64,000 bases of DNA from Ulva prolifera (Eukaryota; Chlorophyta; Ulvophyceae; Ulvales; Ulvaceae): NCBI GenBank assembly GCA_023078555.1, contig JALAAN010000010.1, positions 1,893,756 through 1,957,755 on the forward strand, read 5' to 3'. A model generated the notes under the pieces. It was given only the letters and a program-made list of their open reading frames with translations, ran no database searches and was not told the origin of the DNA. Shown piece after piece: positions 31,969 to 52,377 of the stretch. The stretch's first letter is position 1. Every line of letters starts with the position of its first letter. Position numbers and translations under genes: made by a program.

Positions 31969-32917
31969 TCACCGCCGGCCGCCGGCGCTTGCGCCGGCGG
32001 CAGCGCTCTGCCGCTCAAAGTGCAGCGCGCCGGTGACCGGGTGGCGGCGGCACTCGTACACGTGGCCGTGCTCGCGGCACTGCGCGACCGCGGCGTCGAC
32101 CTCCGGCGGCGAGGAGCACCTCGGGCACACCGGCATCTCCTCCATGCACCTGCACCCACGCGCGCGTGTCGCGTTCCGGACCTACATGGATTACAGTACG
32201 GCACAGCATATGTGCCCCCGGTCCTCCGGAGGTTTCCATGTCCCAAGCGCATACGGCTCAGTAAACCTTGACTTACTTTAGTTTACCGCGGCAATCGTAG
32301 GGTGCAGCATGTGGGGCTTGATGCGGCGCCGAGCTCTGCCCGTGGCACGCAGCATACGGCACGGGGTGCCGCAGCAGCACTATACATCAAGTGATCAGCA
32401 CGAAGCGTCACAGGGTGCAGCGGCGGGCTCCGGGTGGAGCAGATGTGGCGCTCTAGCTAGGGTCCAGCGTGCCCCTCTGGGTCACTTAGACCCTGCTTAG
32501 AACTGAACAGAACTGCTGCGAACAGCTCATGCATCAAACGCACAGCCAGGCAGCCCGCGTGTCCTCCGGGGCCGACCGCCAGATCATCGACCCCGCAGCA
32601 GGTGCGCCGTATGTCCAGTACATGACGTGGTGCATGCATGTGTGTTTGAGGCCGCACCGTCGTGTGTGGCACAACTCCGTGAGCTTGCGGCCGCCTATGC
32701 CGATGGAGCCGTGTAGCCCGGCTGCCCCGGCTGAGCTGTGGCTGTGGTGCTCCCAGCCGTGGTCGGACGCGCGGAGGTACCGGCCAGCCCCCGCCACGTC
32801 AGCCGCGGCCGCCACGCCGTGCACAGGCCCTCCGGAGCTCACAGCGAAGTCGCCATGGTGAAGTGTGAAGAGCAGCGCGAGGCAAACGCCGAGGAGGCCG
32901 CCCCTTGGCCACATCAT
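31969..32917 (-). CDS. Secreted CPRC-motif protein, paralogue 1
   Basis: Two exons on the minus strand: 32917-32658 and 32149-31969 (intron 32150-32657, donor GTGCGG, acceptor GTGCAG, phase 2), 146 codons plus stop. The N-terminus MMWPRGGLLGVCLALLF is a clear signal peptide. Exon 1 then runs through a His/Gly/Ala-rich linker to LTELCHTR. Exon 2 carries CMEEMPVCPRC, a 12-residue spacer, QC, and CREHGHVYEC, then a short Ala/Gly tail. The cysteine pattern and the intron position and phase match two other genes in this window. The second exon is too short to stand out as an open frame. The four to six cysteines could bind zinc or form disulfides; function unknown. Confidence 0.65.
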
Positions 32918-35900
32918 GCTTCTGTACGTAATTCGTGAACGGAGGCAGGATGGCTTGGGAGGGGTGAAACGTGGTCGGTTGTAAGTACTAGCCTGCAGGC
33001 AGATCAATCTCAAACTAGTCCTTATCAAGTGCAAGTAGGTGATGTGAGTGAGGGGGTTGCCCCGGACAATGAGGCCCATGGCTGGTGGCGGTGGTGGCTG
33101 GCTCAGCAGATGCAAGTAGATCTCGATGTTGGATTTATCCTCAAGCCAGGTCCGAGAACGCTGAAACTCTGGAGGGAAGGTATGGCATTGACCCAGCGTG
33201 ACAGCGTGCTGTGTCACAAAGCACGAATGCTGCATCCGCTGTGTCACAGCAGCGTATCACCGCTGTGACGCCCGGTGCGGGCCCCCATGCCACTTGTACC
33301 GTCGGGATCACAGCACCGCATATACGCAGGTGAGGGGCGCCGTTCCCTTGGGAAACGCCGGGGCCTTTAAAATTCAATTAAACTTCCACTTTTGATTTAA
33401 AAAAGTGTAGTATACTTGGCACACGGGACGCTGCAACAGTCGTTCACCAGGCTGGCCACAGGTGGCAACTCCGTGGGGTCCCAGCAGCCGTCGGCGCTTT
33501 GCAGCCAGCGTTGAGGACTCCGAGAACATGTATCATGCATACATGTGCACGACATGCAGATGGATAGACCAACGTTGCGAGGTCGGGCCGAGGATTCAGG
33601 GGATGCCGAGGCTCCGTGTCCACAGACGACACCCGGCCGCTGCAGCCTTCGAGAGAAAATGCGCGCAACGGCTGTGCGTTACAAGAACAAGGCCGGGAGG
33701 CCAGGCAGCAGAGGTAGGTAGCAGTTGTATCCGTGCACTGTTCCTCGTCTTCCAGCGTACGTGGTTGCTGCGGCGCAAGGACAGACAGCAGCTGCGTGTG
33801 GCCTGCCACCAGCTGATTCCTGACCCGTGCAGCTAATGTATTCTATGAAGCAGCTAGCCACATGCGATGATGACATCAAGCACAGTGTGGTGTTCGTGGT
33901 GTCGCGCGCTCTGCATGCTGTGCTGTGTGCTGTGATGCGGTCGCGGCTGTGGTGACACTTTGGTATGCATGGCGCTGGCGGTTTGTATCGGGCTGCAAGA
34001 CATGGCCAGTCGGGCCTGTGCACACCCCATTGTTTTGTTCTATCTCTCTCCCTGTGGTTCTGCAAAGCACTTTGCAATGTTGCACTTGTGACCGGAGATG
34101 TGGCAGACGCTGCATCAATTGCAACTGAACAGGGGACACTGAAGCTAATTCCGGTCTTCTGCCTCATGTGTATACATGAACGTGTGTGGTCAAGGTTGTT
34201 CATTCTGCACAGATTCATGAAGACCAATGCCGCTAGATGCCGAAACAGACATTGAAAGCAGCTCTGCAAAAAATTGTGGTGGTCCACATGTTCACTGCAG
34301 CTGCTGCAGCTGCTGGCTTTCAGGCCCTGGCTTACAGACACTTATGTGTGGGGATCTGTGCGATCCCATTCTCACAACGTTCTCACAACGTGTTGAACGA
34401 GCTCAACTCTCATCCCCATGCACATTCATGTTTGCGAGTCTCCATCGTTTGTCCTCGTCTTCGTCCTCGTTTGTTGGAGGTTGACAACTATGCACGTACA
34501 ACAGCGAAAGGATACAAGATAAGCATTCAAGATTTGCTATCTGACACCGCCTGATATCACTGTGTATGGGCAATATTGCCAATCGCGGTGTGTTGACACA
34601 TCATGGCACCCCCACGAAATGACACAGGTTTGCAACTGAACATGCTTTGATGTAGTCAAAATAGGCAGACACAACAGGCAGGTGTGCTGAGGTCCGGCGT
34701 GGTTCTGCAGTGCCGTGTCTCGAAGGCCGCTGATTAATATGTGCGGTCGCGTCCGTGGGGCTGCACTTGACGCGTGACCGACGTGACTGCGAAGCTGAAT
34801 CACGACCGTTCAAAATCCCGGGCGTGCTGCCCCGAGGCTCAGGATCCGCCATCGCGGCCTCTGAGACGTAGAAACAATCATTATCTCTCTTAAATTTCAA
34901 GGATGGGCTGCCAAAGCGATGACCGTGAACATTGTGCTTCCTAGCTGCATGCCGGTGTTCGTCGCATTGGCTTCGCACTGTGGCAGCCCTCACGACAGCG
35001 GAAACAGGCACATGCCCTTACTCTAATATGCTGCATACTGGCTCAACGGATCATGCTGAAACGCTCGTGTCCACGCTCGAGGTGATATCCGGAGCCTGCA
35101 TTGCTGCGAAGGTGCCTCGACCAAATCACAACTCAAGACAGAATGCCACACCTGCCTCACAGGAGACTGCTCATCACTCTGGAATATCTCGGCTATTCTC
35201 TCTTACCATCGATCGCGCGATGTGTGGATGCTTGTATACCAATGTGTGAGTCTGGCTGTCGGTCAGAGGTTCGGTCAGCAACCTCGCAATTCGAATGAGT
35301 CCTATGCCTGAATGAAGCTTTCAAACTACGAAGCCACGCAGACAGGTTAACAGAGCACTGCTGCACGCGGAAGCAATGCCTGCGGCTGCTGCTCAGCCTT
35401 TGAACGATACAGATGGGGCGCTAGTACGGTCCGATTGCCGTGCACGGAAGGCGGACGCAGTTCGCAGTGGCGAGGTACCACCTCCCACATGACTCCGCAC
35501 GAACAGGCGACGAGTGCATGTGCATGACATCATCCACACGAGTCCTTAGAGGCCTAGCCGCGGAGGGAACGTAAGCGACGCTCGCGTGGACATATATGAC
35601 GAGCGGCCGTGACGGTCATCCATAAAGTGCAGCATCGTGTCTGCAGAAGTTCTTCGACACTTCCACGACGAGACCTGCACGCCTCAATTTTCATCAACAG
35701 CCGCTGCGGTACAACGTCAGCGTGCTTACGGAGTCAGGTGAGAGTTGCCAGCGTACACGCCGAAGCTCGCGCGCACCGCCAAAATGAAAAACCGCACAAG
35801 CACCTGTGCGACCGGTCTGTTGACCCATTCGGAGATCAGTCAATGACAGTCATGCGATGTGGTGCGCACGCGGCCTGGTAGACTCGACCTCTGGAGCTGG

Positions 35901-38227
35901 CGCATTTATCACTATAGTGGTGTATCAGCTGGATAACGCGCACAGCGATGTGGACGCAGCCGCGGGCGCCCACGCGTGGCCACTGCGTGTACACAGCTGT
36001 AGCAGGTGGCATGCAAGCACGCGGATGCGCTATGCAGGTGCCGGCAACCTCCCCCCCCCCCCCCCCCCCCCCCCTAAAGCGCGGCGGATGCCTGGCAGGA
36101 TGTTGACAGCGGCATACCGGTGTGGGCCCAGGCACACCATGCATGGTTGCATTCCCTCTGTTCCCCCCACAGCAACAAGTCCACACCGCCTCGTTTGAGT
36201 CTGCAGGCTCATGCATGCGGGTGGCGCCGCTCACCAGCCGCGGCATACCTGCGGGCCCTGGACTCACACCATATCATATGTACATGCATGTACATGCGCA
36301 TAAATCACAGGTCACCTGCGTCGAACGCATCACACGAGGCAGGTGAGTCTGCCATCAGGCAATCCATCAGATTCAAAGTTGCCGTCGGCATCCATGGCAT
36401 CCATTCCACGGCAGCGCCCGTCACGCATGCTACGAGTGTGTGCACGATTGCATGCATGCATGGCTCATCGGCCGCCCTCTGCCCCTTTCGCCTCATCGGG
36501 CGGCCTCTGCATCCTTCGCCTCCCTCCCCTGCCAGCCCCTCACTTGAGTGAGGGCGATATTGGCCGTCCTCTGTGCCCGCTTCGCAGGCTTCAGGTCGCC
36601 TCGTGTGTACTCCATTGCTGCCGCATCCTGGAGCTGCAAGGGTTGCGATAGGGGGTGTTGTCAAGCGGAGTCGCATGATCGCTCCGCCACTTCTGGGATT
36701 GAATGGCCACATGCATGTGCCTGCCCGAGATACGTGTTGACAACGTCACTGGCCATGGCAGCGCTGATCACTGAGGAGACTGCTGGTTTGGCGGTCCAAT
36801 TCTCGGCCTGGAATCCTACAGCTGTGCAAATCGAGGCATTACACAAACAGACATTCGAAGGGCTGAGCGGGACCAGTGTTGGTCTGGGTGGGGAGTGTGG
36901 TGCCGTCGCTACTGTCCAACAGAGGGTCTGCGTGCCGGACAGCTTGCAGGCCCGGTCGTCCGGAGTTTGTTTTGTCCTCTTCAGGAGACAGCGAATTGAA
37001 TTCACATGCCGCTCTGCTTAACTCTTGCTTGAGAAACAGGTTGCCGTTTCAGTGCTACAGCTCATGCACTTGTCACCGGCATCCACCGACACAGGCCGGC
37101 TCTGATTATATAATTATCACTCGTTTAGACGTACGTAAGCTTCCGCTGGTCTGGTGCCTGCGCCTGCGTCTGCTCCTGCGTTGGCAAGGACGGTAATGTG
37201 GATGCTCCCGAGTGCCAATGCCGTCGGCTGAGTGCGCAGGGCTCATGCTGTGCTGTGCTGTGCGCACGTCCTGAGTTGCTACCTGCTTTGCCGCCTTTGC
37301 CGGTGTGGCACATTGAAGCTCCGTTTCCGCACAGGTTCCTCTTGCAGTCGGTCCGGGTGAATTGCAGTCGTAGCACTTGAAAGGTGGTTGAAACACTGCT
37401 TGCTGACATGTCTGGAGACTCTGGACACGTGCCCGCCAGCTCCCGCCAGCTCTGCAGGTGAGCATGCTCACCTGACGATCCCCCCTGGCGCCGGGTCCCC
37501 TAGCCACTGGGGCAGCCATTGCGTGCCATGCAGGCATCTCAGTGCTCAGCATCTGATACCATGCCATGTATGTAGTTACAAAGGACAGAGGCCGGGCAGC
37601 GAGCCGTTGCCAGGAATGCACACGCAAATCCACTCACGCAGTCATGGCACTAGGCCGGGTACGAGCCACAGCTTGGCCATGCATGTATGCATGATTACAA
37701 AGCCATGTCGTGTTGGAAGAAGTTCAGCTGTGATGTGTTACAACGCCGGCGAGGCGGGCAGCACCGCGATATAACAGCGCGTATCGCAACACCTCCACCA
37801 ACAACCCTGCCCAGTGCACCCTGCTGTGGCACCGATGTGATGCGCCAGGGTCCTGAGACAACTGTTTGCCACAGCAGGCAGCACAGCATGACCATGCAAG
37901 CAGCACAGCATGACCCGGCCGTCAGCACAGCACGACCATGCATGCAGCTGGTGCATCTCATGCAACCTCCTACACCCCTGACAGACTGTGGACCTGTGCA
38001 TGCGCAGTCCTGTCCCCATACTGTGCATCTGGCATGGCATGAGGTACGCTCCGACCGTCTGACCGGGCAGCAGCCCTCACAGCTACAACAGGCCGCCCAT
38101 GCGGTGAGGCAGTACAAGCCTCACCCTCCCCCTGTAGCCACCTGGTTCGTCGTGCAGGCTCGGTTGCGGCCTCTGCCCCCCCCACCAATACCTTTACCTC
38201 GCCAGCATCATGATACCTTTCGGCACC
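32918..38227. other. Gene-poor spacer with C24 tract
   Basis: No exon chain was recognised over 5.3 kb. It holds a C24 run at 36051-36074 and weak TTACAAGG-family fragments near 33678, 37268, 37573 and 37735. A 21-bp unit built on CAGCACAGCATGACC repeats about three times at 37874-37945. Confidence 0.45.
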
Positions 38228-39419
38228 CTAGGTGCCGCCCTCATTGCCCTCATCCCCTTCGTCGCCCTCGTCTCCCTCGTCCCCCTCATTCCCCTCGTTG
38301 TTCATGCTGCCGTCGCCGCCCCCGGCAGCTGTGCAGAAGAGGAGCTGCCCGCGATTCCGACAGTGGCCGGTGCCGCCGCTGATGATGCCGCAGCGCGGAC
38401 AGATGGGGAACTGTCTCCTGCACGCAGGCCTGCACCCCACACCACATCTCATGCTGCCGGCTGTGCAGACACACTGACCGTGACGGCAGATGTGAACTAG
38501 CAACGGGCTACAAACAGGGAGGGGGGGGGGGATGCATGGCGCGCTGCTTGAGTATATGCATGTGCTCGTACGTGCATGTGAGCTCAGCCTAGGGCCGCAG
38601 CCATGCATGGCCCCTGGGGTGCTAGCATCATCAGACGTTCCTCACAACATGCACATGCTGCAAAAGGGGCACGACACAGGCAGGCCACGCCATCATCACA
38701 GCGTGTAGCGTGCACGCCATTCTGCAGCACGCACTCTGCTGAGTGGGAGCTCACACAGTCATAGGCGCATGTGCACCCCCACACCACATCATGCCGCCAA
38801 GGTGCCCATGCTGGCATGCTGCGGAGAATCTCCGGCAGCAGAGTCAGTTCTGTAGATCGAATGCAGCCTCGATGGAGGTCATGGGGGTTCAGATGTAGGG
38901 ATGTCCACAGGGTACCACCGTGCTTAGCTCACAACAGCACTCGCTTCCGAACACCGAGACTCACACACGCCCAGGGCACAAATTAACAGCCCCGCCAGGC
39001 GCGCCAAATGCACACTTGCAGGAGGTGCGTCAAGCTGTTGAGGCGGACCCCAGGCTGGTGCAGCCATGCATGAGCCGCCGCAAGTGGCCGGCGGTCAACT
39101 CCGCTGTCGCCCGCTCCTCCGCCGCCCCCGCAATCACCACTCCAGGCACCACGACTCCCTCTGAGCCAAACGCCTCTTCATCAGCTTCTAAGGACCCCAC
39201 CCCGTCGCCTTCGAGGCTGCTGAGCGTATTGCCGGTCCCATGCACAAGGTCGCCGGCACGCATCATGCGGCTGCCGTAGACAGGGTGTGCCGCCGCAACG
39301 CCGCGGGCCAGTGCGGCGGCTGCAGTGAGGGCCACATGCATGAGGAACCGCAGCTGGGCGGCCGCCGATCTGCGTCTGCGGGCAGACGCGGGGGGTGTGC
39401 CTATCGCCTGGGCCGCCAT
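38228..39419 (-). CDS. Secreted CPRC-motif protein, paralogue 2, with short acidic repeat
   Basis: Two exons on the minus strand: 39419-39049 and 38417-38228 (donor GTCCGC, acceptor GTGCAG, phase 2), 186 codons plus stop. The start MAAQAIG is followed by a basic patch and a hydrophobic core (FLMHVALTAAAALARGVAAA) typical of a signal peptide. Exon 1 ends GHLRRLMHGCTSL. Exon 2 reads RQFPICPRC, a nine-residue spacer, HC, and CRNRGQLLFC, then a Gly-rich turn and about seven [DN]-E-G triplets before the stop. The cysteine spacing after CPRC (C-x8-C) equals that of paralogues 1 and 3, and the intron sits at the same place and phase. The donor GTCCGC is weak. It lies about 6 kb from paralogue 1 in the same orientation. 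Confidence 0.6.
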
Positions 39420-42400
39420 GTGGCTAGAGGTGCGCTCGAACCCTGCTCCAGCCGTGCTCATCAAGGGGCGCGTCTCCAGAGCTTGCTGCGGTGGCTATGG
39501 TGTGTCGGCTGTCAGGATGGGGAGCACCGTGAGGGGATCTCGACCGGGTGTACTCGATGTCAACAAACTGTTTCGACAGGCGGACACTTGTGTGGCGTTT
39601 GACAAGTTTGAACTCGTTGAGCGCGTTGAGGGGTGTGCCGGGGCGCAGGGGCACGCTTGGGAGATGTGCACGAGAGGAGCGCGGGCAGAGCCGGGCCGGT
39701 GGCCAGTGAACAAGGCTGCCGTGAACAATTGCTTAAGTGAATTGCTTAATTGCTGAAGTGAACAAGCCTGCCGGTGTCCAGTGAACAAGGCTGCCGTTCA
39801 CCACTGCTGGCCGGGGGGTGCGGAACGTAGTGCTTGTCTCAACGCCCGGGTGGCGTCGCTGAGAGCTTGGTCTTGGTCCGAGAACACCGAGGGTCTGCAC
39901 AGATGGGAGAGGTTGCTCTCTGTATCTCAGGTTTGATGTCAGGTGGCCATGGGCGGGGAGGAGGGGGGGGGGGGGTTGTGTGCGGCATGTGGCGTTGCAC
40001 GGATCGTGCACCTCTCGCTCTCGCTAGATCGCATGATCCTATACCTAACCTGTGGATGTACACGGTCAGCATGTTGTGCCACTGCCAAATACTTATGCTA
40101 CGGTGCATATGATACGGTGCATATGCTACGGTGCATATGCTAAGGTGCTGTGAATGTGTGACTGCATGTGTGGAGGAACAGCCCGAGTGCCCCACATGTG
40201 CACAGCAGGCAGTTCCAATGACCAATGACTCATTGGCAATGAGTGTTGTCGCATGTTGGCTGTGCACAGAAGTGGTCTCTCACACCGAAGCGACCGGCGC
40301 GCAATCGCTTGAGCAGTGCCCCGGGCCCTCTCATTCGACCGCTTCGTAGACAATCTGTGTTGTGTGTGGCCATATGCGGCATAGCGGACAAGTGAGTGGC
40401 GGCATCAAAGCGTGAGACTGCGAAGAGGTCCACCCGGCAATCCTGAATCGGGAGGTCTGCACATATGCATACACATGTGGGAGGTTGTCGCAATCCAGTG
40501 ACAGCCTTCCAGGGGTGGCCTGCTCACTACTGGACTGCCACAGATGTTGCAGGCGCAACCTGGTGCTGCATGGGGGGGAGGGCATGGCGGCATGCATGTG
40601 GCAGCAAGCAGCAGGAATGCGGCATTGTTGGGTGGAGCGTTCTGCGTGCTGACTGAAGCCGATGAATACATGCAACGACCTCAGTACTGAGAAAGACAGG
40701 TGTTGAGGTGACGATGACAGCATACAGCAGGTACACGCGGCTCATATGGCACAGACGGCACATATGACATAACCCATGGTTGTGCAGTGATGGCTGTGCA
40801 CATGGAGACTGCTGTCTCGTTTGCCATGGCCATGGCATTGTAGAATACCTGGTAGGCAGAAGTCTAGAGACTACAGAGACTATAGATCTAGATGTCTAGC
40901 TACAGCTATCGTGGTGCACAGCCATGGTGCTGCTACCCTGCAACCGCCAATGCTTGCCCGAGGCAAGCGCAAAAGATTACATTCAGGAGTTGTACCGCTG
41001 TTTGCGTGCCTGAGAGGGCATGCTCTGTCATCACTGCTGCACCGGAGCCGCGACAAGGTCAAGTTGTGGTGTGCTTCCGAATGTCGTTGCTTGTATTGAC
41101 GTGCGCAGTGAGATGACTGAGCGACCATCCTGACATGTACGGCAATATCTGATGCGTTTTGCTGCATGCCTGCTGTATTGATTGTGTGCTAGTGGCATGA
41201 GGCTGCAGCGTCCTGGCAACACCGGAACTATGGCCTCAACGGTCCACAAATCACCACGCAGCAAGATGCAGTACAGGCTACAGCTCCAGAGTGCGCACAC
41301 CTGTTGTCGGACTTGACGGTGAGTTGTGTGGGACTGGCTGCCTGATGCGGCGAGCTCGTGCCGTGTCAGGGAACGTGGCTGGGTGCGATATCCGATCAGC
41401 TGCAGGCCCCGCTCCGGAAAGAAAGTCTACGACGAAAGCAGGCCTGGGAGGTTGTTGTGTGCGTCAGGAGTGTCGCGGCTAGCTATGTGGATGCGTGTAC
41501 GTCTGGCTGATGTCACGGCGCTGTTGCCGATGGCTGACCGTATCTGAGCGTTCTGACGGAAGCGCTATAGCTCGACGAACTAGCTCATGCAACTGCTTCT
41601 AGCGCTTATAAAGATTTCGTGGTTTCAAAATGCTCCGATGTGCACCTGCGTTCAACGAGGAATGCTCGTCAGTAGCGAGAGGCCGTTCCGATGCATCCTG
41701 CTATCTCGTGTGGAGACTTCCCACGTCCTCCTTCAGTATTCTGCTTAGCAGACAGGTGATCCATGGGCTGTCTCGACGTCAGCTTGGGGGTTTCGAGCGC
41801 TGCCATGCTCCAGTGCTGTAATGCAGCTTGACTTACGAGTGCACTGGCGCACCACGGGCGCTCGAATGGAGCCAGTCTCCGCAGCTGCAATTTCTCAGCA
41901 CAGACATTATCAACATTGTCATTCGACCACCCTGCCCCTGCGTTTCTGCCTGACCTTCACGGCAGACCTGGCAAGCCGTGTCCGTGCGCCTCTGAACACT
42001 CCACGAGAAGCGTTCACGCGGTAACGCACGCTAGATGCACAACAAGCTCCGAATCACGGCTGTCACCATGTAAAAGCAGATTCCCATGCGTCGTGTGAAA
42101 CTTGCAACAGCCCCCGGCCGGAGTTGAGCATCGTATACGGCAACGCTGACCTGGTTCGATTTCCGAGATCAGCGTCGCCCTCCAGAGGCCTCTCGGACGT
42201 GGCTGCCGGAACCGATTACGATCAATTGCGAGCGATCACCAACGTCCTGAGCCAGCCGGGGCCTCTAGGAGCTTCATGCTACCACATTCAACAGACCAAG
42301 CAGGTACCCATTCTCACGCCACCAACAGCATTACATGAGTAAAACTTCATAGGAAAGCAGATGTGGATCGCAACACGAGATGCACCTCACACTTGTCTCA

Positions 42401-42794
42401 ACAGGCCACAGAATCTTGCAACTACGTCTAGCAAACCAAACGCCTAGCGCCGCCAGCCCAACATGCGCATTGAATGTCCGCACCATGGCGCCAGTGCACA
42501 TGTAGCCATTCGCACGCCTGCACAAGCAGAAGCCGCTGCTGCTGCGACGACGGGCCGCCCAGTTTGCGGCCCAGTCAAGCAGGGGTGACCTCTGTATCCG
42601 GCAGACGGGTTCGGCTCGGGTGTGTGAAGTGGGTGAGGGGCGCCCGCTCTACTCGGGGTGCCCGCTTGCAGTCTGCAGGCGCAGTGCATGCGGTGCAGTC
42701 TGCAGGCGCAGTGTAGAAGCCCTCCCCTTGCTGTCCATGCACGCCTGGATCGTACGCGCCTGAGTGTCTTGGGAAGTGTGCAGGTGGGCGCGAG

Positions 42795-43013
42795 AGCGTG
42801 CGCATGATGCGGGCCGGGCCACCAGGGGATGCGGGCCGGGCCGCCAGGGGATGCGGATGCGGGCCGGGCCACCAGGGGATGTGGGCGGGGCCGCCAGGGG
42901 ATGCGGATGCGGGCCGGGCCGCCAGGGGATGTGGGCCGGGCCGCCAGGGGATGCGGATGCGGGCCGGGCCACCAGGGGAGGCAGGCCGGGCCGCCAGGGG
43001 ATGCGGGGGCTCA
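42795..43013. repeat. GC-rich tandem repeat with higher-order 50-bp period
   Basis: A 22-bp unit (GATGCGGGCCGGGCCRCCAG plus GG) occurs in pairs separated by an extra GATGCG hexamer, giving a 22+22+6 pattern repeated about four times. Confidence 0.9.
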
Positions 43014-43318
43014 TGTGAGGCTGGCGTGCCGTCGATCTAGATTGTTCCCACTCGAAGATGCACACCCAGACGGCGGTGCCACCAGCCCCTCCGACTCTGC
43101 TCTTGTAACAAACAGACACGGCGATGAGCGGGGTGGCTGTCAGTGTGGGAGTGTGCATGCATGCCTGCGCCTGCTTTCACTTCCGGCAGTGGCGTAGGTG
43201 TTTTGGTTCCCGGACGTTGTCCCGGCAGCGCCACGGGCGCACCGGCTTGTCTTGTCTCGGTACCTCACGCGTCTGTTGGCCGCGGCCGTGTGGGCTGTGT
43301 CAGGCGTCTGCCGTCGGT

Positions 43319-43427
43319 TGGGCCCACTCAGGGTTTCCTCCAGTCAGGCCCACTCAGGGCTCCTCGGTCAGTCAGGCCCGCTCAGGGCTCCTCGGTCAGT
43401 CAGGCCCACTCAGGGCTCCTCCTGTGC
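43319..43427. repeat. 28-bp tandem repeat, about four copies
   Basis: The unit begins CAGGCCCACTCAGGGCTCCT; the copies differ at single bases. It lies about 300 bases after the 50-bp array. Confidence 0.9.
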
Positions 43428-44063
43428 GCGTGGTGATCAGCTGATAAGATCTAGCTGATCAGAACTGCAGGACATGCATGTGCTCATGCATATGCTCATG
43501 CAGTTGTGATGCAGCTCAGGGTTGGTCCATGCTGCTGTCGGCGTGAATTACATGAATTACTATACTACACCGAGACACCTGAATCCTCCCACTGTATTGT
43601 TACACATGTTAAGCCAGCCAGACCAGCATTACTAGCGAATGCCCGTCGCACAGGGGTTTCCAGGTGGATCACCCCTTTGGCATGGGCATGTGGACCCCCA
43701 GGATATACCTTACACCAGAATCGTTATGTCACCAGATCACAGGAGAACGAATGCCTTCATGGCAGTCACTGTGGGCACTTCACAATTGCGGCACTGCCTG
43801 TCTGGGCTGTCTATGTCAGCACCCGCTGTTCCACGTGATGCTAGCATGCCTGATGCTAGCATGCCTGATACTAGCAAAGCTCAGGCGCAGCCTCGCTACG
43901 TGGCCAGCTGCCGCTCATCCATGCTTCATTCACCTCACCAGGCGGTGCAGACAGACAGACGCTTACAGTTCATCTGACAGGACAGCACTTATCTCACCGA
44001 CACGACACCCATTTCCCAATGCTCATGATATGTACAATAAAGCACATGTTATGTACACACACA

Positions 44064-44150
44064 CGACTGTCTTTATCATGCATGCCATGGTTGTTGCCCG
44101 CGGTGCTACCTGCCTTGCTTGCTTTGTCCTTGTAACACACTCGACTATCT
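44064..44150 (-). mobile_element. TTACAAGG-family element with imperfect 9-bp duplication
   Basis: The core 44086-44140 is the reverse complement of TTACAAGGACAAAGCAAGC followed by GGCAGGTAGCACCGCGG. It is flanked by CGACTGTCT (44064-44072) and CGACTATCT (44142-44150). Confidence 0.55.
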
Positions 44151-44420
44151 CCGCCTCCCCAAGGCTGCTCCGTAGCGCGTGTTCGTGTTCTGTCTGTTGA
44201 TGTCTGCCTGCCTGTGGGAGGGTGCTGACAGGGGGCAATGGGAGGGGGTTCAAACCATTCGATGCGGTTGCGTGCCGTTGGTGGCCTAATAATGTTCATG
44301 GGGGTTTTCAATTCCCAGCAGACTTCTGACATGCTCAGGATGAATGTGCCTACCCAGCACTGTGAAGAAGGGTGGGAGCTACAGCGTGTGTTTCACACCT
44401 GGCGATGCTGTTGCATGGTG

Positions 44421-44504
44421 GCATGTGTGTTACAAGGGCAAAGTCAGAGCAGCAGGCAGCGCCTGAAGCTCTGCACCACAACCCATTGCACCATGCATGT
44501 GTGT
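44421..44504 (+). mobile_element. TTACAAGG-family element with 10-bp duplication
   Basis: The insert 44431-44494 begins TACAAGGGCAAAG and lies between two identical GCATGTGTGT copies at 44421-44430 and 44495-44504. Confidence 0.55.
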
Positions 44505-45834
44505 CTTCAGCAGGTTTTGCAGCAGGTTGCGATCCAGATGTATGCTTCTGGCACCCGCACTCGGCCTGATGCCCTGCATGGTAGATAATTGAAATTCCTG
44601 CTTGCGGCACCGAGCGATGACCGACTTCTGCTTGTGTTCGTCCAGGGACATGCTTGGTTGGCCTGCAAGTATGAGGGCATGTTGTCAGGCGCGAGCAGAG
44701 ATCAGGACTAGCTCCAAACTCGCGGGAGAAAGTCTTCAATCTTGATCATGATGGCAGTGAGCAGCGTGTGACTGGGACTGGAGCAGGCGGATTGCGGGCC
44801 TCTGCAGGACTGCAGACATCTGAAGCTTGGTGGGCCGTCCAAACACATAGATTACGTCTGACTCAAGCGCCCAGAGGCACCACTAAGCACTATGATGACT
44901 ACACCGGACGCTACGCAAGACATCTGGCGAGTAAGCTGTGGCGAGACACCGTCCTGAAGAAAGTGTACTACAACAGAGCCATGCAGCTGAAACAGCCCGG
45001 CGCTGGCATGAGACGAGACAATCTTGCTGCTGATCGCTAATCGAAGTCATGGGCATGGGAATCAGAGCTCTCGATAGTTCCAGAAGTCGGCTGGGTCACG
45101 ACCCGATATCGAAGGGCTTGATCAGCGGTGCGGTCCGCGCGTTGTCGTCCTGACCGTGGTATAGGCAGTGTTAGCACGATGAGGATGCACCAGAATCTGA
45201 TTGTATATAATGGCTGCCTTCATCGGTTAGAAGGTCGGCTGTGCTGCCCTGTTGCTCATCACCCGTTCTGCCGGGCACGGACCAGACGACTGCGCTTGCA
45301 CTGACTCGCAACTGGTGCGCCACAGAAAGCTATCACTTGCACGATGTTCAGGAATCAACATTCGCTGGCGTGATCCTGTCGCAAATATTCGTTATCAGCT
45401 GGAACTGGTTAGCTTTGGGGCCTGTGCACGCGGGCAACGCTCTGCTGTCGATCGGCGTTGCGGTGAGCTGGCAGCCGCTCGGTGAACGCACTGTGTACGA
45501 GATTCTGATAGAGCATGTGTACAGTGCATCGCTGCCCGGAATTATGTGATGCGCCGCTCTTCGTCGACGCAACCATGGCTCTCTATCTCTCTGCCGCTGT
45601 GGAATCGTCCGCAGATCGAACGACAGCCGCGAAGAAGTCGCACAAAGAAGCGAATCTGTGCCATGGTGCCATTGTGCTGACCCGGTTGCTTGCAGCACAT
45701 GCGTGGTCAAGTATAATACTGCGACAGTCAACGGGCCAGCGATCGTTGATCAATGCTTGATCAAGTGGTGCCGGGGGTCCACTACGCTGACGTCTCGAGA
45801 CGATGCTTCCGGCATTGCATGGTGTTTGCATGGT

Positions 45835-45924
45835 CTCATGGTGTATGTTACAAGGACAAAGGCAGCAAGGCGGGCAGCACCGCGAAAGCAGCAAGCAGAC
45901 GCAGCAAACACTCGTGGAGTATCT
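45835..45924 (+). mobile_element. TTACAAGG-family element with imperfect 14-bp duplication
   Basis: The core starts TTACAAGGACAAAGGCAGC and includes GGCAGCACCGCG. The flanks CTCATGGTGTATGT (45835-45848) and CTCGTGGAGTATCT (45911-45924) agree at 11 of 14 bases. Confidence 0.5.
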
Positions 45925-46524
45925 GTCCGGCTGGAATCACAAACTGCAGTGTCGCGCTCGCTTTGTGATTTGCGAGTCATGCAACAGCGGGGCCTGCGGC
46001 AGGAGACAGTTTGCAATGGAGGCCGCAGTTCCCGGCTGGCCAGCCAGTAGATAGTTGTGTGTGGTCCAGCCTTGCCGAGGAGTGCGCCTGTGTCGTGACA
46101 ATGCAGCAATGTTGGACTGTATTGTATCACTGTTGACTGGTCGTAGCACCATGCATCAGTCACAGTATCAGTCACAGAATCAAGTGTACATGTGCACGTA
46201 GTAATTGAGATACTAACTGAGACGATCACATGGTTATAATTGAGAGGTCTCCACATCCACAGGGGCCCGGTCTCCACGGAACTCAGTATACGGAGTGTAG
46301 TGTCCACACATCACAGTACGCAGAGCATGCTGAGCTCAGCGCACAGCAGGCACTCCTGCTTGCCAAGTGCACTTCACTGTTTGCTTTCCAGCCTAGGTTG
46401 AAAAGCCTGGTGGCTGCTTCAGAGATTGCAGCTCCCCGTGCCTCACCCGTGTGAGTTCTTGTCACATGATTCATATGCTACAGCAGCAGCCACAGCAGTG
46501 TTGCCACCCACGCCACCAATCACG

Positions 46525-46589
46525 CACACATACGCTGCCCCTCCGGCTTTGGCCCGTCCGGCTTTGGCCTTGTAACACACATACACTGC
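46525..46589 (-). mobile_element. Very short TTACAAGG-family element with 14-bp duplication
   Basis: The 37-bp insert 46539-46575 (minus strand TTACAAGGCCAAAGCCGG and on) lies between CACACATACGCTGC (46525-46538) and CACACATACACTGC (46576-46589), which match at 13 of 14 bases. Confidence 0.55.
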
Positions 46590-46712
46590 GCACAGCGATC
46601 CTTCTGCTGTGTTTTTCTGCACCCGTTCACCCTGCTGTAACCACTCGCTGCGCACAGCGATCCTTCTGCTGTGTTTTTCTGCACCCATTCACCCTGCTGT
46701 AACCACTCGCTG
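46589..46712. repeat. 62-bp tandem duplication
   Basis: Two nearly identical units starting CGCACAGCGATCCTTCTGCT lie at 46589-46650 and 46651-46712. It abuts the previous element and ends about 130 bases before the next gene, so it may sit in that promoter. A related fragment (TTCTCCCGTTCACTC) is at about 49650. Confidence 0.8.
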
Positions 46713-46838
46713 TGCACAGGCACCGCCGCCATCCCAACACCCTGCAGCTGACAGTGGAGCAAGCACTGCCGGCCCCCAGGCCCTCGCGCTGCTGCAAACC
46801 GCTGCGTACGTGCTCTCGAGTGCTGACTCGCCGGAGCG

Positions 46839-48302
46839 ATGGCTGATGAGCCAGCAGGCAGCGGCAGCCCCAGTGCCGCCTCCTCTGCTGGGGAGCCCCT
46901 GCTCCCACCAGACAACGGCACCAGCGACAGCCCCGCTGAGGACGTGGTGCCGCTGACGCCACTCCAACTCCCAGAGCATCAGTTCCACGCCCCGGGGCGC
47001 GATAGCGCCGCCGAGGACGACTTGGCAGAGGTCGGCGGCGCAGCCTACATCTCCTCGGGGGATCATGAGATCGAGCACGGTGGTGCACATGGTGGTGGCT
47101 GGGGAGGCGTCGCTGAGCACCGCGAGCCCGGCAGTCTCTCGGCAGCCGTTGGGGTGCATGATGGCTCTCCTGGGGTCTCGGCGGAGGCGGCTGGCGGCTG
47201 CGGCGGCAGCATGCATGACACCGCCGTCCACATGCCGCTCTACGGCAGCCTCCACTCCCCAGGGTCCACACACAGTGGGCCATACCAAAGCCGTGGGATC
47301 GATGCAGCGGCGGCGGGCGGACAGGGCGACATGCTGCAGAGGCATATGCATGGTGCACATGCATGCGGCCCGCGTGAGGGTGCCGCCGCGGCCGATGGTG
47401 GCGCTGAGTACGGGCCGGCCACTGCGTTGCTGGCACAGCGCGTGAGCTTCTACCGGCAAGCGTGGCGGTACTATGGGGAGCACCTCGGCATCAAAGAGCT
47501 GCATCCCTGGGCCACCCTCGTGGTGCTGCTGGCCGGGATGGCCGGGCTCGCGGGCCTCAGCAACACGTACGGCGGCCGCGGCGGCCGCGGGGCCGGGGCC
47601 CGCGTGCAGGTCGCCGCGTGCTGCTGCGCTGCGTGCTGCGTGCTGACCGCGCTGTACTTCAGGATGGCGAAGCTGCAGCTAGCGAACCGCGACTTTGCAG
47701 TACAGTGTGCGAACGCGAGCGTGGTGGCGCTGCAGCAGACCATGCATGAGATGCATCGGCTCGGAGCCGCCCGCCGCGCCGGCGGGCGTCTTGGGCCTGC
47801 CGATCTCGTCCGGGGGCAGTGGCGTGACAAGAATCCGCCTCGGTCGCAGTGCGGCAGCGCTGATGGGGATCACCCTCATGCTTGTACCGGTGAAGATGAG
47901 AAAGAGGCTCCATTGTCGTCACAGGGCGCCGACTCAGCCACGGCAGCGGCTGCGTATGGCCGCAGTGCTCCGCGCATGCATGGCTCGCATGCATACGTGC
48001 GAGGCGATGGCATTGCTGATGGCGGGCACATGCATGCGCACCACGATGCGATCTGGGCTGGGTTTGTGGGGAAGCTGCGGCGCAGCATGCGGGCCGGAGC
48101 GGCGGAGCACCCGGTCGCGCTGCAGGCGCTGTTCAACTGGCTGGGGGCGGTGGTGTGCGTCGGGGGCATCTTCGGTGCGGCGCTGCCTGTGGATGTCGGC
48201 GCCTTTGGCCATGACCTGCCAGTCGTGAGCTTTGCGGGGGCTGTGGTGGTTGTCGGTGCGGCGTGGGCGGCGGTGAACGGCGGGGGATGGCAATCAGGTT
48301 AG
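46839..48302 (+). CDS. Unrecognised multi-pass membrane protein, intronless
   Basis: A 487-codon open frame. Residues 1-205 are hydrophilic and rich in Gly, Ala, Ser and His (a likely cytosolic or lumenal domain, starting MADEPAGSGSPS). A YRQAWRYYGEHLG segment precedes membrane helices at about 223-243 (WATLVVLLAGMAGLAGL) and 258-277 (VAACCCAACCVLTALYF). A second hydrophilic loop follows with many His and acidic residues. A final hairpin of helices (FNWLGAVVCVGGIFGAALP and VVSFAGAVVVVGAAWAAV) ends near the C-terminus. Codon use is strongly GC-biased throughout, like the recognised exons, which argues that it is real. No family is recognised. A cluster of Cys lines the second helix. Whether an upstream exon exists is unknown. 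Confidence 0.6.
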   Translation: MADEPAGSGSPSAASSAGEPLLPPDNGTSDSPAEDVVPLTPLQLPEHQFHAPGRDSAAEDDLAEVGGAAYISSGDHEIEHGGAHGGGWGGVAEHREPGSLSAAVGVHDGSPGVSAEAAGGCGGSMHDTAVHMPLYGSLHSPGSTHSGPYQSRGIDAAAAGGQGDMLQRHMHGAHACGPREGAAAADGGAEYGPATALLAQRVSFYRQAWRYYGEHLGIKELHPWATLVVLLAGMAGLAGLSNTYGGRGGRGAGARVQVAACCCAACCVLTALYFRMAKLQLANRDFAVQCANASVVALQQTMHEMHRLGAARRAGGRLGPADLVRGQWRDKNPPRSQCGSADGDHPHACTGEDEKEAPLSSQGADSATAAAAYGRSAPRMHGSHAYVRGDGIADGGHMHAHHDAIWAGFVGKLRRSMRAGAAEHPVALQALFNWLGAVVCVGGIFGAALPVDVGAFGHDLPVVSFAGAVVVVGAAWAAVNGGGWQSG

Positions 48303-49331
48303 ACCCACATGTGTGTGCGTGTGTAGCCGCGGATTGTCTCACGAAGTGTTGAGAAGGGGAACAGGGAAGTAGCATTTCCATGTGTGCTGGGTATGTGTCC
48401 GGCCGGTGGTGCTGCAAGCATGCGTAAAACACAAGTTTACAATAGTGTACACAACAATATTTTGTTGGCATTGTTGCTATGAACATGCAGCTTGACGCTT
48501 GAGCCCACCACTAGTATGATCAGTTATGTTCTGCATGCGCTGTAGAGGAGGGCAGCCCGACTACTGACTACTTGTCGTGGGGCTCCCACATGTGGGGAGT
48601 GGGGAGAAAGAAGGGACGACACCAGATTGTCATCATATCTGGCTGTGATCAGTTAGGTTCCTCTATGTGCCTTTATGCCTAAGCCTGTGACAAAGGTTGC
48701 TGCAGCTATATGTATACCTTCTCGCCTGGGTGCCTGCTAGCAATCATCCCAGCAAATGAGCACCGTTTACGTTTGCCTCGCAAGCATTGTGGGAGGGGAA
48801 TGGGCCGCAAGTTCAGTACCAGCCATCATGAGCTTCGCAGCCGAACTGCCATCATGCCAGGACAACCGTAAAATCACCACTCCCCCGAGACGATGTGTAC
48901 CACATTCAAGCGTTGGCACACACTCTACCGGACACTGCCTGTGTGCCGAGCCCTTCAGGAGAGGCTTCAAAGGGCTGAGGAGCGCGGTACATCCCACTGG
49001 ATGCCCGAGTGCCGCAGTCTTGCACTCTCTTTCCCAGCATCAGGTCGTGGTACTGGTTCAAGTTTCAGCGTCGCTAGGTGTACCGTAGACTGCAGCTGCA
49101 GCCGGCCGTCCTACGCGGCACGCTCGACAGAGCCATCCCTGAAAGCTTTGCGTTATAGTGTTGGTAAGAGTGAGCTCTGTGAGTCGCCAAGCGGCTCTGC
49201 ATTTGCGCCTGCTGTCCAGAGCTCGTTTGCAAGCAGCCCTTCGCGCGGGTTTACCAATTGCAAGGTAACCCTTGAGGATCCGACAGCCATCTTTGCAGAG
49301 CTGCCAGGTGCGCAAGCCAATGGAATGTGCT

Positions 49332-49483
49332 ACACAGCACCCATGTGTCGTTGCGTGGTTGTGTTGATGTGTGCTGCGTGTGGCTTATTGTGTGGTGTGC
49401 GGTTCCCCTGGTTGCTCGCGCGAGCACCGCGCGGTGCTACCTGCCTTGCTTGCTTTGCCCTTGTAACACACACAGCACCCATG
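49332..49483 (-). mobile_element. Full-length TTACAAGG-family element with 14-bp target duplication
   Basis: The insert 49346-49469 (124 bp) is flanked by two identical copies of ACACAGCACCCATG (49332-49345 and 49470-49483). On the minus strand it starts GTTACAAGGGCAAAGCAAGC, passes through GGTAGCACCGCG, and ends CCACGCAACGACA. It matches 14970-15086 along almost its full length. There are no terminal inverted repeats and no coding capacity. Confidence 0.7.
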
Positions 49484-50283
49484 GCTGCCAAAAGTATCTT
49501 CGCATGCCACAAGTTACATATACGTCATGGCAATTCAGCAGCTCGAGCTCTGAGGACTGCATGCGCAGATATCTATGTATCGATACATCCCAGCCCAGTT
49601 GAGCGTATGTTGCTGTTGCTTCGGATGAGATTCGGTTTCAGTGTTTGTTTTCTCCCGTTCACTCTTTTGTAAAACTCCCAGCCCAGTCCCAGACCTGTAC
49701 ATGTTCCCATCGACTCGCTGCAGCTAGTGTCGTTCACAAACTTTCGGTTTGAACAACGCACGTTGCGCACAGTTCGACCTCTGCAGAACTCTGGAGCATC
49801 TCCAAGGCTTAATAATGCATCCACTCGGCCTCGTATCTCGAGATACCAGGCCGCTCGTCGTTGATGACGAGATCGAACCCGCGGCAGCCGCCGCGGAACG
49901 TGTCCAGTTCCGTGGCCAGACCTCGTGAATCTGGCCGCGACATATAATATTTACAATATACACCGCGACGCACGTGTGACGTCCGGCTCAGCAGCGCCGG
50001 TGGTATGCTATGGCCCGATACGGTGGCCTACCAGGCCGCTCAGCGAGGCTACAAGGGCCCCGGTGAAACGTAGGCCATGCATATGGTGGCAATAGTGTTC
50101 TGGTTGACAACCCTCCTGCTGCATGCATGGATGGCGCATGTGTATCTCCCAGTACATCAACAAGCCAGGCGCCTCGGATCCATGAGTCAGTGGACAAGTC
50201 TTGGAAAGACTGAACGCATGGTATCACTTCACCAGGCCATGGCCTTGAGGCCTGGTGATATGGTACTGCACAGAGTTGCATTG

Positions 50284-50686
50284 GTACGTTTCGTGATAAA
50301 GTACGTTAAGCAAAAATACCCGTATGGTACGTTGGCTCCAATCTTGAGGGGTTGAAAAGTACGCTGTATAGGCTACATCACTGGCTTGGCGCCTGAGGCG
50401 CCGAGCTGGTCATGGCCAGACTTGGTAGTGCCACGATCACTGTCATCTGTGCTTAGGCACCCTATTGCAGAGAACAGTACAATATACTAACAGTGAATTA
50501 GATGACCAGGTTACACAGGTTCATCATGCAATGCAAGGGATGTTAAAATCCTCCTTTGGCCTTGTGGCTAGAGGTGCACCACAGTGCAGAGCTCTAGGCT
50601 CTCTCAAAACGCGAAAGTCCGAAACGTACGCGCGTACTGTACGCTGATAAAGTACGTTAGAATAAAATACGCGTATCAAACGTACC
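50284..50686. repeat. Pair of diverged direct repeats rich in TACGCGTA/GTACGTTA
   Basis: Blocks 50284-50333 and 50640-50686 share GATAAAGTACGTTA, then AAAATAC, CGTAT and ACGTAC in the same order, about 355 bases apart. Confidence 0.6.
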
Positions 50687-50799
50687 GAAATCGAAAGATA
50701 CGCGTATTAATGCAACTCTGGTACTACATACATGCTCATATATGTATACGTGAAAGTCACGCAGAACCCGCCCTGTGCAGGAGTTCAACAGTGTAAGTC

Positions 50800-52377
50800 A
50801 TGGCAGCCCGCACCTCCAGAGTCCGCAGCTCCCGGCCATGCACAGCCACCGCAGCGGCATGCATGCGCGCCGCGATCGTCGCGCTGTGCACGCTGGCAGC
50901 CTACGTCGCGCGCAACGGGGTGGGCGTCCATGCAGCGGCAGCGGCTGCCATCACGGTACACCATGATGCACGGAAGCAGCAGCCAGGGCAGATGCAGGGT
51001 GTACGTGGCTCCGGCGTAGCTGTGGCGGCAAGGTGGGCGGCCGCGTCTCTAGATGTGGAGGATACCAATGCACCCGGAGGTGGAGGCTGGGAGTACGCAG
51101 AGGCTGATGTCATTGTCTCAGAGGAGAGCACATCTGCGTTGACGAGTGCTTCGCGCCGGCACCTCCTGCATGCATGCCACTTCGTACGGTACGGCCCGCT
51201 CCGGTGACCAGTGTTGGGTCGCTTTGCAGCTTTTCCAGGATTGCCACCCCAAAATTAGATCTGATTATTCGGAATTGTTCTATGTGATCGGGCCCGATGA
51301 CCCAACACTGCCGGTGACTGTGGCACTTGCGAGCATGATACGCAGGCCGGGGGGAGTCGGGGTGATGTCAGGGGGGTTACACTGGTCGATGTGACTGTGG
51401 GCCGAACCCTGTACATATGTGTCGGAATGTACACTCCCAAATTTAAACACCACTGCCATACCACGCGTCGCAGCCGCAACCGACACCCTCCCCATCAGCG
51501 TGCGTTCGTATGCATCATGGTGCAACCTTCGGATCCGGGAGACCCCTTCATGTGTACATGCATGCATGCCTGACATGCATGCAGGCCCGCCGCGTGGGCC
51601 TGAACTCTGTGCATGCGTAGGTGTGCGGGCAGGCTGCCGCCGTGCCCCCGCTGCAGGTTCCCATCGAGCAGCAAGTTCGGGCACTGCAAGGCGCGCCGGA
51701 AGGTGTTTTCATGCCGCCGCAGCATGAACATCGACGGCGGGGAGGGCAACGAAGGCAACGAGGGCGCTGAGGGCGCCTCCCCGCCTGACGGCGACCCAAA
51801 CAATGGCAACGAGGGTGACGAGGGGGATGAGGGCGACGAGGGTGATGAGGGCGATGAGGGCGATGAAGGGAACGAGGGCAACGAGGGGAATGAAGGGGAG
51901 GAAGGTAATGAGGGGGATGAGGGTGATGAGGGCGACGAGGGGGATGAGGGGAACGAGGGTACAGAGGGGGATGAAGGGAATGAGGGGGAGGAAGGGGATG
52001 AGGGGGATGAAGGCGATGAGGGTGATGAGGGGGAGGAGGGGGACGAAGGCGACGAAGGCGACGAGGGGTTTCTGCGGAGGCTGTTCCGTGGGAGGAATGA
52101 AGGGGACGAGGGGAACGAGGGGAATGAGGGAGATGAGGGGGATGAAGGCGACGAGGGCAATGAAGGGGCAGAGGGCGACGAGGGCAATGAGGGTGATGAG
52201 GGTGATGAGGGGGATGAGGGTGACGAGGGCGATGAAGGCAATGAGGGGAATGAGGGTGATGATGCGGACTACAATGGTAATTATTTTTTTGAGGCCGACG
52301 GGGCCGGGGTCATGGTTGAGTATGAGAGTGGCTTCCCCTATGCCAACGCAGGGGACTATGCAGGGGACTATGCGTAA
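50800..52377 (+). CDS. Secreted CPRC-motif protein, paralogue 3, with long acidic Gly-X-Glu repeat
   Basis: Two exons: 50800-51188 and 51633-52377 (donor GTACGG, acceptor GGGCAG, phase 2), 377 codons plus stop. MAARTSRVRSSR precedes a hydrophobic core (MRAAIVALCTLAAYVA), a likely signal peptide. Exon 1 ends SRRHLLHACHFVR. Exon 2 begins LPPCPRC, a ten-residue spacer, HC and CKARRKVFSC, then opens into about 170 residues of G-[DN]-E triplets (51740-52262), interrupted once by FLRRLFRGRNE, and ends in a Tyr/Phe-rich tail with DYAGDYA. Every third residue is Gly, but there is no proline, so this is not ordinary collagen. The extreme negative charge would bind Ca2+ or basic partners outside the cell, which is an inference. 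The same intron position, phase and cysteine order occur in the two minus-strand paralogues. Confidence 0.65.

Follow-up and report, generated by a model that had tools for sequence, protein, structure and literature searches.

Three related genes in a 64-kb window of Ulva prolifera

The window analyzed here is a 64-kb stretch of the genome of the alga Ulva prolifera (GenBank assembly GCA_023078555.1, contig JALAAN010000010.1, positions 1,893,756 to 1,957,755 of the forward strand). Three predicted genes, called genes 1, 2, and 3, were found in it at the coordinates given by an earlier reading of the sequence (the original prediction), which had taken them for paralogues encoding fast-evolving extracellular proteins. 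That these genes are related is confirmed. They belong to a larger family in which a hydrophobic leader, a pro-region, and the motif R-x-L-L-H-G-C-H are encoded by exon 1 and a block of conserved cysteines, followed by a tail, is encoded by exon 2 (Table 1).

A hidden Markov model (HMM) based on 28 family members from elsewhere in the genome ranked the three genes first among 1,804 six-frame segments of the window, the next-best segment having an E value of 0.15. When full modules were scored, each gene scored higher than all 300 of its cysteine-preserving shuffles. The pattern C-x(4,12)-CP-x-C-x(6,16)-C-x(6,10)-C has just three matches in the six-frame translation of the window, one at each of the three genes; in 100 dinucleotide shuffles of the window it was found 0.33 times on average (maximum, 2), and its CPRC form was found 0.04 times (maximum, 1).

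The two-exon plan with a common intron position was likewise borne out by direct reading and by splice models, in which the introns of all three genes are in phase 2. In other members, an in-phase donor (GTGCG, GTGTG, GTACG, or GTGAG) lies within a few codons after the motif. Most members have TGCAG as the acceptor, as a rule with G-TGC after it; locus L005 requires a nearer CGCAG acceptor, as its TGCAG frame contains a stop. The original prediction had also placed a leading cysteine ahead of the block. The block itself is present in all three genes, but the leading cysteine is mostly the intronic acceptor read in frame: because TGCAG translates as C-R, the extra cysteine in the open frame is false.

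Table 1. Exons of the three window genes and the repeat coding for the acidic part of gene 3
Feature	Position	Strand	Content
Gene 1 (W1), exon 1	32658..32917	-	Leader, pro-region, RKLT-ELCH; RKLT at 32678-32689; donor GTGCGG, phase 2
Gene 1, exon 2	31969..32149	-	C2-C6 block at 32050-32148, short tail; HMM E 2.4e-8
Gene 2 (W2), exon 1	39049..39419	-	Leader, pro-region, RRLM-HGCT; RRLM at 39069-39080; unusual donor GTCCGC
Gene 2, exon 2	38228..38429	-	C2-C6 block at 38333-38422, short acidic N/D-E-G tail; HMM E 5.6e-8
Gene 3 (W3), exon 1	50800..51188	+	Leader, pro-region, RHLL-HACH; RHLL at 51157-51168; donor GTACGG, phase 2
Gene 3, exon 2	51621..52377	+	C2-C6 block at 51622-51714, long (N/D/E)-E-G tail, Tyr/Asp-rich end; HMM E 5.3e-15
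9-bp tandem repeat	51811..52262	+	Consensus GAGGGGGAT, 50.2 copies, 72% matches; codes for the acidic triplets of gene 3

The exon-1 motif and the six-cysteine module

Exon 1 had been described as ending in a cysteine-containing motif. The cysteine is there, but the full motif is R-x-L-L-H-G-C-H, of which the window copies, RKLTELCH, RRLMHGCT, and RHLLHACH, are among the more diverged versions. Searched as a DNA pattern, LLHGCH has 34 sites in the genome, compared to 5 for a reversed control, and 21 of these sites lie within family loci that were read. Although the pattern did not require arginine, Arg occupies position P4 in all 21, and the residue between Arg and LL is S, K, H, T, E, Q, R, or A. 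The other 13 sites, such as C1:5961525, C1:2096914, and C2:5079880, are possible further exon-1 ends, with or without a block, and three of them stand directly upstream of unread block matches. (In such coordinates, C1 to C10 denote contigs, contig C10 being the one that bears the window; they are distinct from the cysteine labels C1 to C6.) Over 31 exon-1 ends, the entropy was 0 for R and for the first L, 0.55 for the next L, 3.0 for x, and 2.7 to 3.7 upstream; as the rows were selected for R and L, independent information comes from x and the flanks alone. The pro-region ahead of R-x-L-L shows no conservation in these rows. R-x-L-L-H is retained in all five members that lack cysteines C1 and C2 and thus has a role apart from the cysteine scaffold. 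An R-x-L-L type motif also occurs at the C terminus of the open frames of L009 and L011, which end in SRRLLA and SRRRLLQGGANG; this RRLL is possibly a second cut site for site-1 protease (S1P).

A leader was scored as a hydrophobic 12-mer with a mean Kyte-Doolittle value of ≥1.8, near an ATG and in the frame of the motif. In 17 of the 32 sequences scanned, the window genes included, a single frame starting with ATG contains both motif and leader. In L023 and L042, both in the contig-C2 cluster described below, the R-x-L-L exon comes after a Met-containing stretch (..MHL-RRLLHGCH) with no obvious leader, and an earlier exon therefore probably encodes their signal peptide. Proline-rich runs (PPPPPSP) like those of hydroxyproline-rich glycoproteins (HRGP), together with N-glycosylation sequons (NxT/S), were found in the same frame as the block in L011, L018, and L021. 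Along with the leader-motif frames, these features support the extracellular fate originally proposed, and secretion of the family members is well indicated by their predicted translations.

Tallied over 34 blocks, the module reads H-G-C1-H...C2-x(3,6)-C3-[PNAS]-x-C4-x(7,15)-GH-C5-x(8,12)-C6, with C1 in exon 1 and C2 to C6 in exon 2. Proline follows C3 in 28 blocks and GH precedes C5 in 29; C2 is replaced in two, and L025 has only an intronic cysteine at its place. The status of C1 and C2 was scored in 33 of the 43 family loci, namely, members with both exons readable, three intronless ones included: both cysteines are present in 27 and neither is present in 5. Two clades lack the pair. In L011/L018/L054 (support, 98/99), the intron is absent and a single open frame covers both site and block, and in L055/L056 (support, 100/99), the intron is retained. 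Joint loss of C1 and C2 suggests a disulfide between them, and C1 probably pairs with C2.

An AlphaFold2 model of the block (predicted local distance difference test [pLDDT], 72.8; predicted template modeling score [pTM], 0.39) contains a beta hairpin at residues 19 to 32 that bears C5 and C6. A PDB fold search with the 39-residue block model gave no significant match (best E, 4.4), and a PDB profile search with the block returned a RING domain as its best match (E, 0.061). In a Pfam-A scan of 31 members at E values up to 10, every matching family was limited to one or two members; the lowest E value came from the PaaD zinc-ribbon model in one member (E, 0.0017; model cut-off not shown). A match placing the block in an intracellular zinc-finger family did not occur in that scan, and zinc finger identity was rejected, since the Pfam, PDB-sequence, and PDB-fold matches are scattered and weak and none is family-wide. 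Searches of the published literature for the motif and for algal secreted or S1P-cut wall families brought up, among the matches listed and the portions of text they give, none recognized as this family. Within these databases and this literature, the description of the family as apparently undescribed fits.

Tails, family size, and genomic surroundings

Among 29 translations whose tails were classified by reading, 13 carry N/D-E-G repeats, 12 have Tyr/Asp-rich or TAEELQ-type tails, and 2 more are proline-rich. Gene 3 and many members on contigs C4 and C1 have tails of (N/D/E)-E-G repeats; gene 3 has 94 Asp and Glu residues compared to 14 Lys and Arg in 251 amino acids. Tyr/Asp-rich linkers or TAEELQ-type ends are found in members on contig C2. 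The contig-C2 cluster (C2:4820000-4985000; L031 to L047) comprises 11 genes. The one that was followed, L033, has at least four further exons, with matches in neighboring loci; its exons 3 to 6 encode a domain for which neither Pfam nor the PDB gave a match. The first part of this domain (TAEELQEAL..GTNHILITAHLD) is also matched at many sites of other contigs for which no block match is listed. One hand-joined downstream domain from contig C2 matched no Pfam family, pectin methylesterase (PME) included, and a PDB profile of four such hand-joined domains had a tyrosine phosphatase as its best match (E, 0.6). A right-handed beta-helix or pectin-lyase-like domain, a by-eye impression, was rejected, as Pfam and the PDB profile give it no support. 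The downstream part of the contig-C2 members is a multi-exon domain, and no more is claimed for it.

Single-protein searches of the 88.9-Mb genome yielded 43 distinct block loci (contig C1, 7; C2, 13; C3, 1; C4, 12; C5, 3; C9, 1; C10, 6), of which 38 were read directly; 11 of the 13 contig-C2 loci are clustered at 4.82 to 4.98 Mb. Gene 1 (E, 0.02), gene 2 (E, 3.3), L055 (E, 0.12), and L056 (E, 0.2) were counted despite weak search scores because they were read. Five loci come from the search only (C1:5954296, C1:5985963, C3:7910801, C4:8117504, and C4:2981887), each with an E of ≤0.01 in some search, and C2:3547340 (E, 0.07) and C10:1415930 (E, 0.18) were excluded. L003, among the loci read, has an in-frame stop. 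A tree of 37 rows and 39 columns was mostly unresolved; the window genes do not group together in it and thus form no local tandem set there.

The claim of fast evolution needs qualifying. Ratios of nonsynonymous to synonymous substitution (dN/dS), taken from two close pairs without a significance test, were 0.31 in exon 2 of L010/L020, with 0.51 in exon 1 and 0.45 in the block alone, and 0.30 in the block of L001/L002, whose exon-1 silent sites are saturated. These ratios of 0.30 to 0.51 point to purifying selection. The family is known here from one eukaryotic genome, that of U. prolifera. When relatives were sought in viral and prokaryotic contigs, 14, 44, and 76 stretches fitted the pattern and tblastn confirmed none, a result that is not informative on other eukaryotes.

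Elsewhere in the window, gene 3 is followed after about 2.6 kb by a Ty1/copia-type reverse transcriptase (54954-55721, plus strand; Pfam RVT_2, E 2.7e-39). Tandem arrays were found at 10887-11351 (45-bp unit, 10.3 copies, 97% matches) and at 61784-62053 (54-bp unit, 5.0 copies, 93% matches); both unit lengths are multiples of three, and the arrays are therefore possibly coding.

Putative maturation by site-1 protease

The cut consensus of S1P, also known as SKI-1, is R-x-[hydrophobic]-[L/T/K/F]. At the predicted P4 to P1 positions of the window copies, RHLL and RKLT fit this consensus and RRLM fits less well. The genome contains an S1P gene, L051 (region C1:7633881), which matches Pfam PF23094 (MBTPS1_3rd) with 155.9 bits and whose catalytic exon matches the solved site-1 protease 8uwc with an E of 3e-110, compared to 9e-26 or weaker for ordinary subtilisins. 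According to the splice model, the L051 prodomain border is RRQLLGSG, 31 residues ahead of the catalytic Asp. In the human enzyme, the distance from RRLL186 to D218 is 32 residues, and the self-processing sites given are RKVF, RSLK, RRAS, and RRLL (PMC8019017). Arabidopsis S1P (SBT6.1) is described as acting in the early Golgi on a substrate precursor that has the potential sites RRLR and RRAL (PMC7162652), and S1P, named SBT7 there, is reported across Archaeplastida (PMC6713707). With R-Q-L-L at the L051 border and R-x-L-L in the family, the enzyme and its putative substrates carry the same signature. L051 is a candidate for the enzyme that processes all members of the family, and maturation of the family by S1P via R-x-L-L is likely, judging from these motifs.

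Altogether, we consider it reasonably probable that the family consists of secreted pre-pro-proteins that S1P would cut at R-x-L-L, with a constant six-cysteine module bearing variable tails in the wall or matrix. A signal peptide would direct the precursor into the endoplasmic reticulum. The alga's own S1P/SKI-1-type protease would then cut after R-x-L-L, probably in the Golgi, and remove the variable pro-region just before HGCH, so that the mature protein would start with the six-cysteine module. The module would be held by disulfides, with C3 to C6 (CPxC...GHC...C) as its core, and may serve for assembly or anchoring, so that tails of different kinds are brought into the cell wall or extracellular matrix: repeats of the acidic N/D-E-G type, Tyr/Asp-rich linkers followed by a multi-exon domain, or HRGP-like rods rich in proline. 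Gene 1 and other short members might be free peptides instead. We infer the S1P cleavage, the disulfides, and the wall role from features of the predicted proteins.

Several points weigh against this account. With a P1 residue other than Leu, gene 1 (RKLT) and gene 2 (RRLM) make less convincing candidate S1P substrates than family members in general, and the prodomain exon of L051 taken alone has no match in Pfam or among solved chains. At the leader threshold used, no single frame with both motif and leader was seen in 15 of the 32 scanned sequences. The splice models depend on conservation and on a preference for TGCAG among several possible acceptors; the splice of gene 2, whose donor is GTCCGC whereas the first in-phase donors of 22 other loci start with GTG or GTAC, is the least certain of the three. 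L025, in which C2 is missing and a cysteine stands two residues beyond the site of C1, breaks strict C1-C2 pairing, and with weak deep forks in the tree, the independence of the two C1/C2 co-losses is not proven. The AlphaFold2 block model, of moderate confidence, shows nothing beyond the beta hairpin, a three-sequence model of the intronless clade reached a pLDDT of 39.1, and the four-cysteine core could also bind zinc. Finally, location in the wall is a reasoned guess drawn from composition alone.

Alternatively, the proteins may be secreted and cysteine-rich but keep their pro-region, with R-x-L-L-H-G serving as an element of the folded module or as a signal for sorting, a reading that we regard as unlikely. 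The H after R-x-L-L and the L preceding it are each conserved in 28 of 31 ends, and the G, C, and H that come next are conserved in 24, 25, and 22; such conservation across the octamer would be expected from one structural role, and the departure of genes 1 and 2 from Leu at P1 points the same way. However, the freedom of x, the persistence of R-x-L-L-H without C1 and C2, the R-Q-L-L at the border of the alga's own S1P, and the lack of conservation in the pro-region argue for a protease site.

Less probable still is that the short members, gene 1 foremost, are RALF-like secreted signaling or defense peptides, with the long tails secondary. Expansion of secreted signaling and defense peptide families is common, and gene 1 would release a product of 66 amino acids with six cysteines downstream of the putative cut. 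RALF precursors are S1P substrates in plants, cut at a dibasic site that reads RRLL in moss PpRALF1 to give a mature peptide with two disulfides (PMC9933782). RALF precursors have a signal peptide, a variable pro-region, an S1P site, and a Cys-rich mature part, the plan predicted here for the Ulva proteins; however, RALF has four cysteines, whereas the Ulva family has six with CPxC and GHC, long tails, and a phase-2 intron right after the site. Moreover, of the 29 translations, 13 bear acidic-repeat tails, 12 bear Tyr/Asp-rich or TAEELQ-type tails, and 2 more bear proline-rich tails, and no RALF domain turned up when 31 blocks and 5 longer family members were scanned against Pfam. That the family is an intracellular zinc-ribbon or RING-like one with chance hydrophobic stretches for leaders, as the CPxC knuckle and the zinc-ribbon match in 1 of 31 members and the RING match noted above might suggest, is very improbable given the single ATG-started frame of leader and motif in 17 of 32 sequences, the HRGP-like and N-glycosylation features in frame with some blocks, a second half that reads C-x(8,12)-C with no second CxxC knuckle, and the lack of a zinc family common to the members.

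The preferred reading, secreted precursors cut by S1P, has parallels in other systems. An R-x-L-L motif is present in group-2 PME pro-proteins. In these, S1P removes a pro-region ahead of an extracellular domain, and processing of PME by SBT6.1 is mentioned (PMC7162652); the Ulva family differs in having a six-cysteine module between site and domain and no PME match in Pfam. Diatom silicanin-1 and silaffins resemble the plan predicted for the Ulva proteins in having a signal peptide, a short stretch ending in RRL/RXL, and then a compositionally biased protein. We know of no CPRC/GHC module in the diatom RXL proteins; the lineages are unrelated, and the U. prolifera genome has two nuclear RuBisCO small-subunit (RbcS) genes, which lie on large contigs, were each matched as two distinct pieces, and place the genome in the green lineage. 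In silaffins, the stretch ending in RXL is removed by a protease described as yet unknown, and silicanin-1 has 18 cysteines (PMC5525289). Volvocine pherophorins and HRGPs are similar to some Ulva members in combining proline-rich runs with cysteine domains. The pherophorin domain DUF3707 (PF12499) had no match in the U. prolifera genome, where the controls were silent too, so that its absence is not proven, and it was also absent from the matches when 31 blocks and 5 longer family members were scanned against Pfam.

In kind, these proteins are ordinary, i.e., secreted, probably proteolytically matured, and Cys-rich; the family nevertheless lacks a convincing match in the databases searched and has a processing signal of unexpected clarity. 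If the preferred reading is true, one protease, S1P, would mature a whole secreted family, and S1P processing, known for plant peptide hormones and wall enzymes, would extend to algal coat proteins. The small Cys module carries a disulfide prediction that can be tested, and a search profile of R-x-L-L-H-G-C-H, phase-2 intron, and CPxC-GHC-C could be used to look for the family in other algae. A bolder idea, tentative and on present evidence doubtful, is that the matrix of the alga is built from about 43 precursors with a common S1P-gated six-cysteine "plug" that S1P exposes in the Golgi and that joins acidic, tyrosine-rich, or proline-rich tails into a single coat. If this is true, S1P would be a master maturation step of the algal wall, apart from its roles in stress signaling and peptide hormones.

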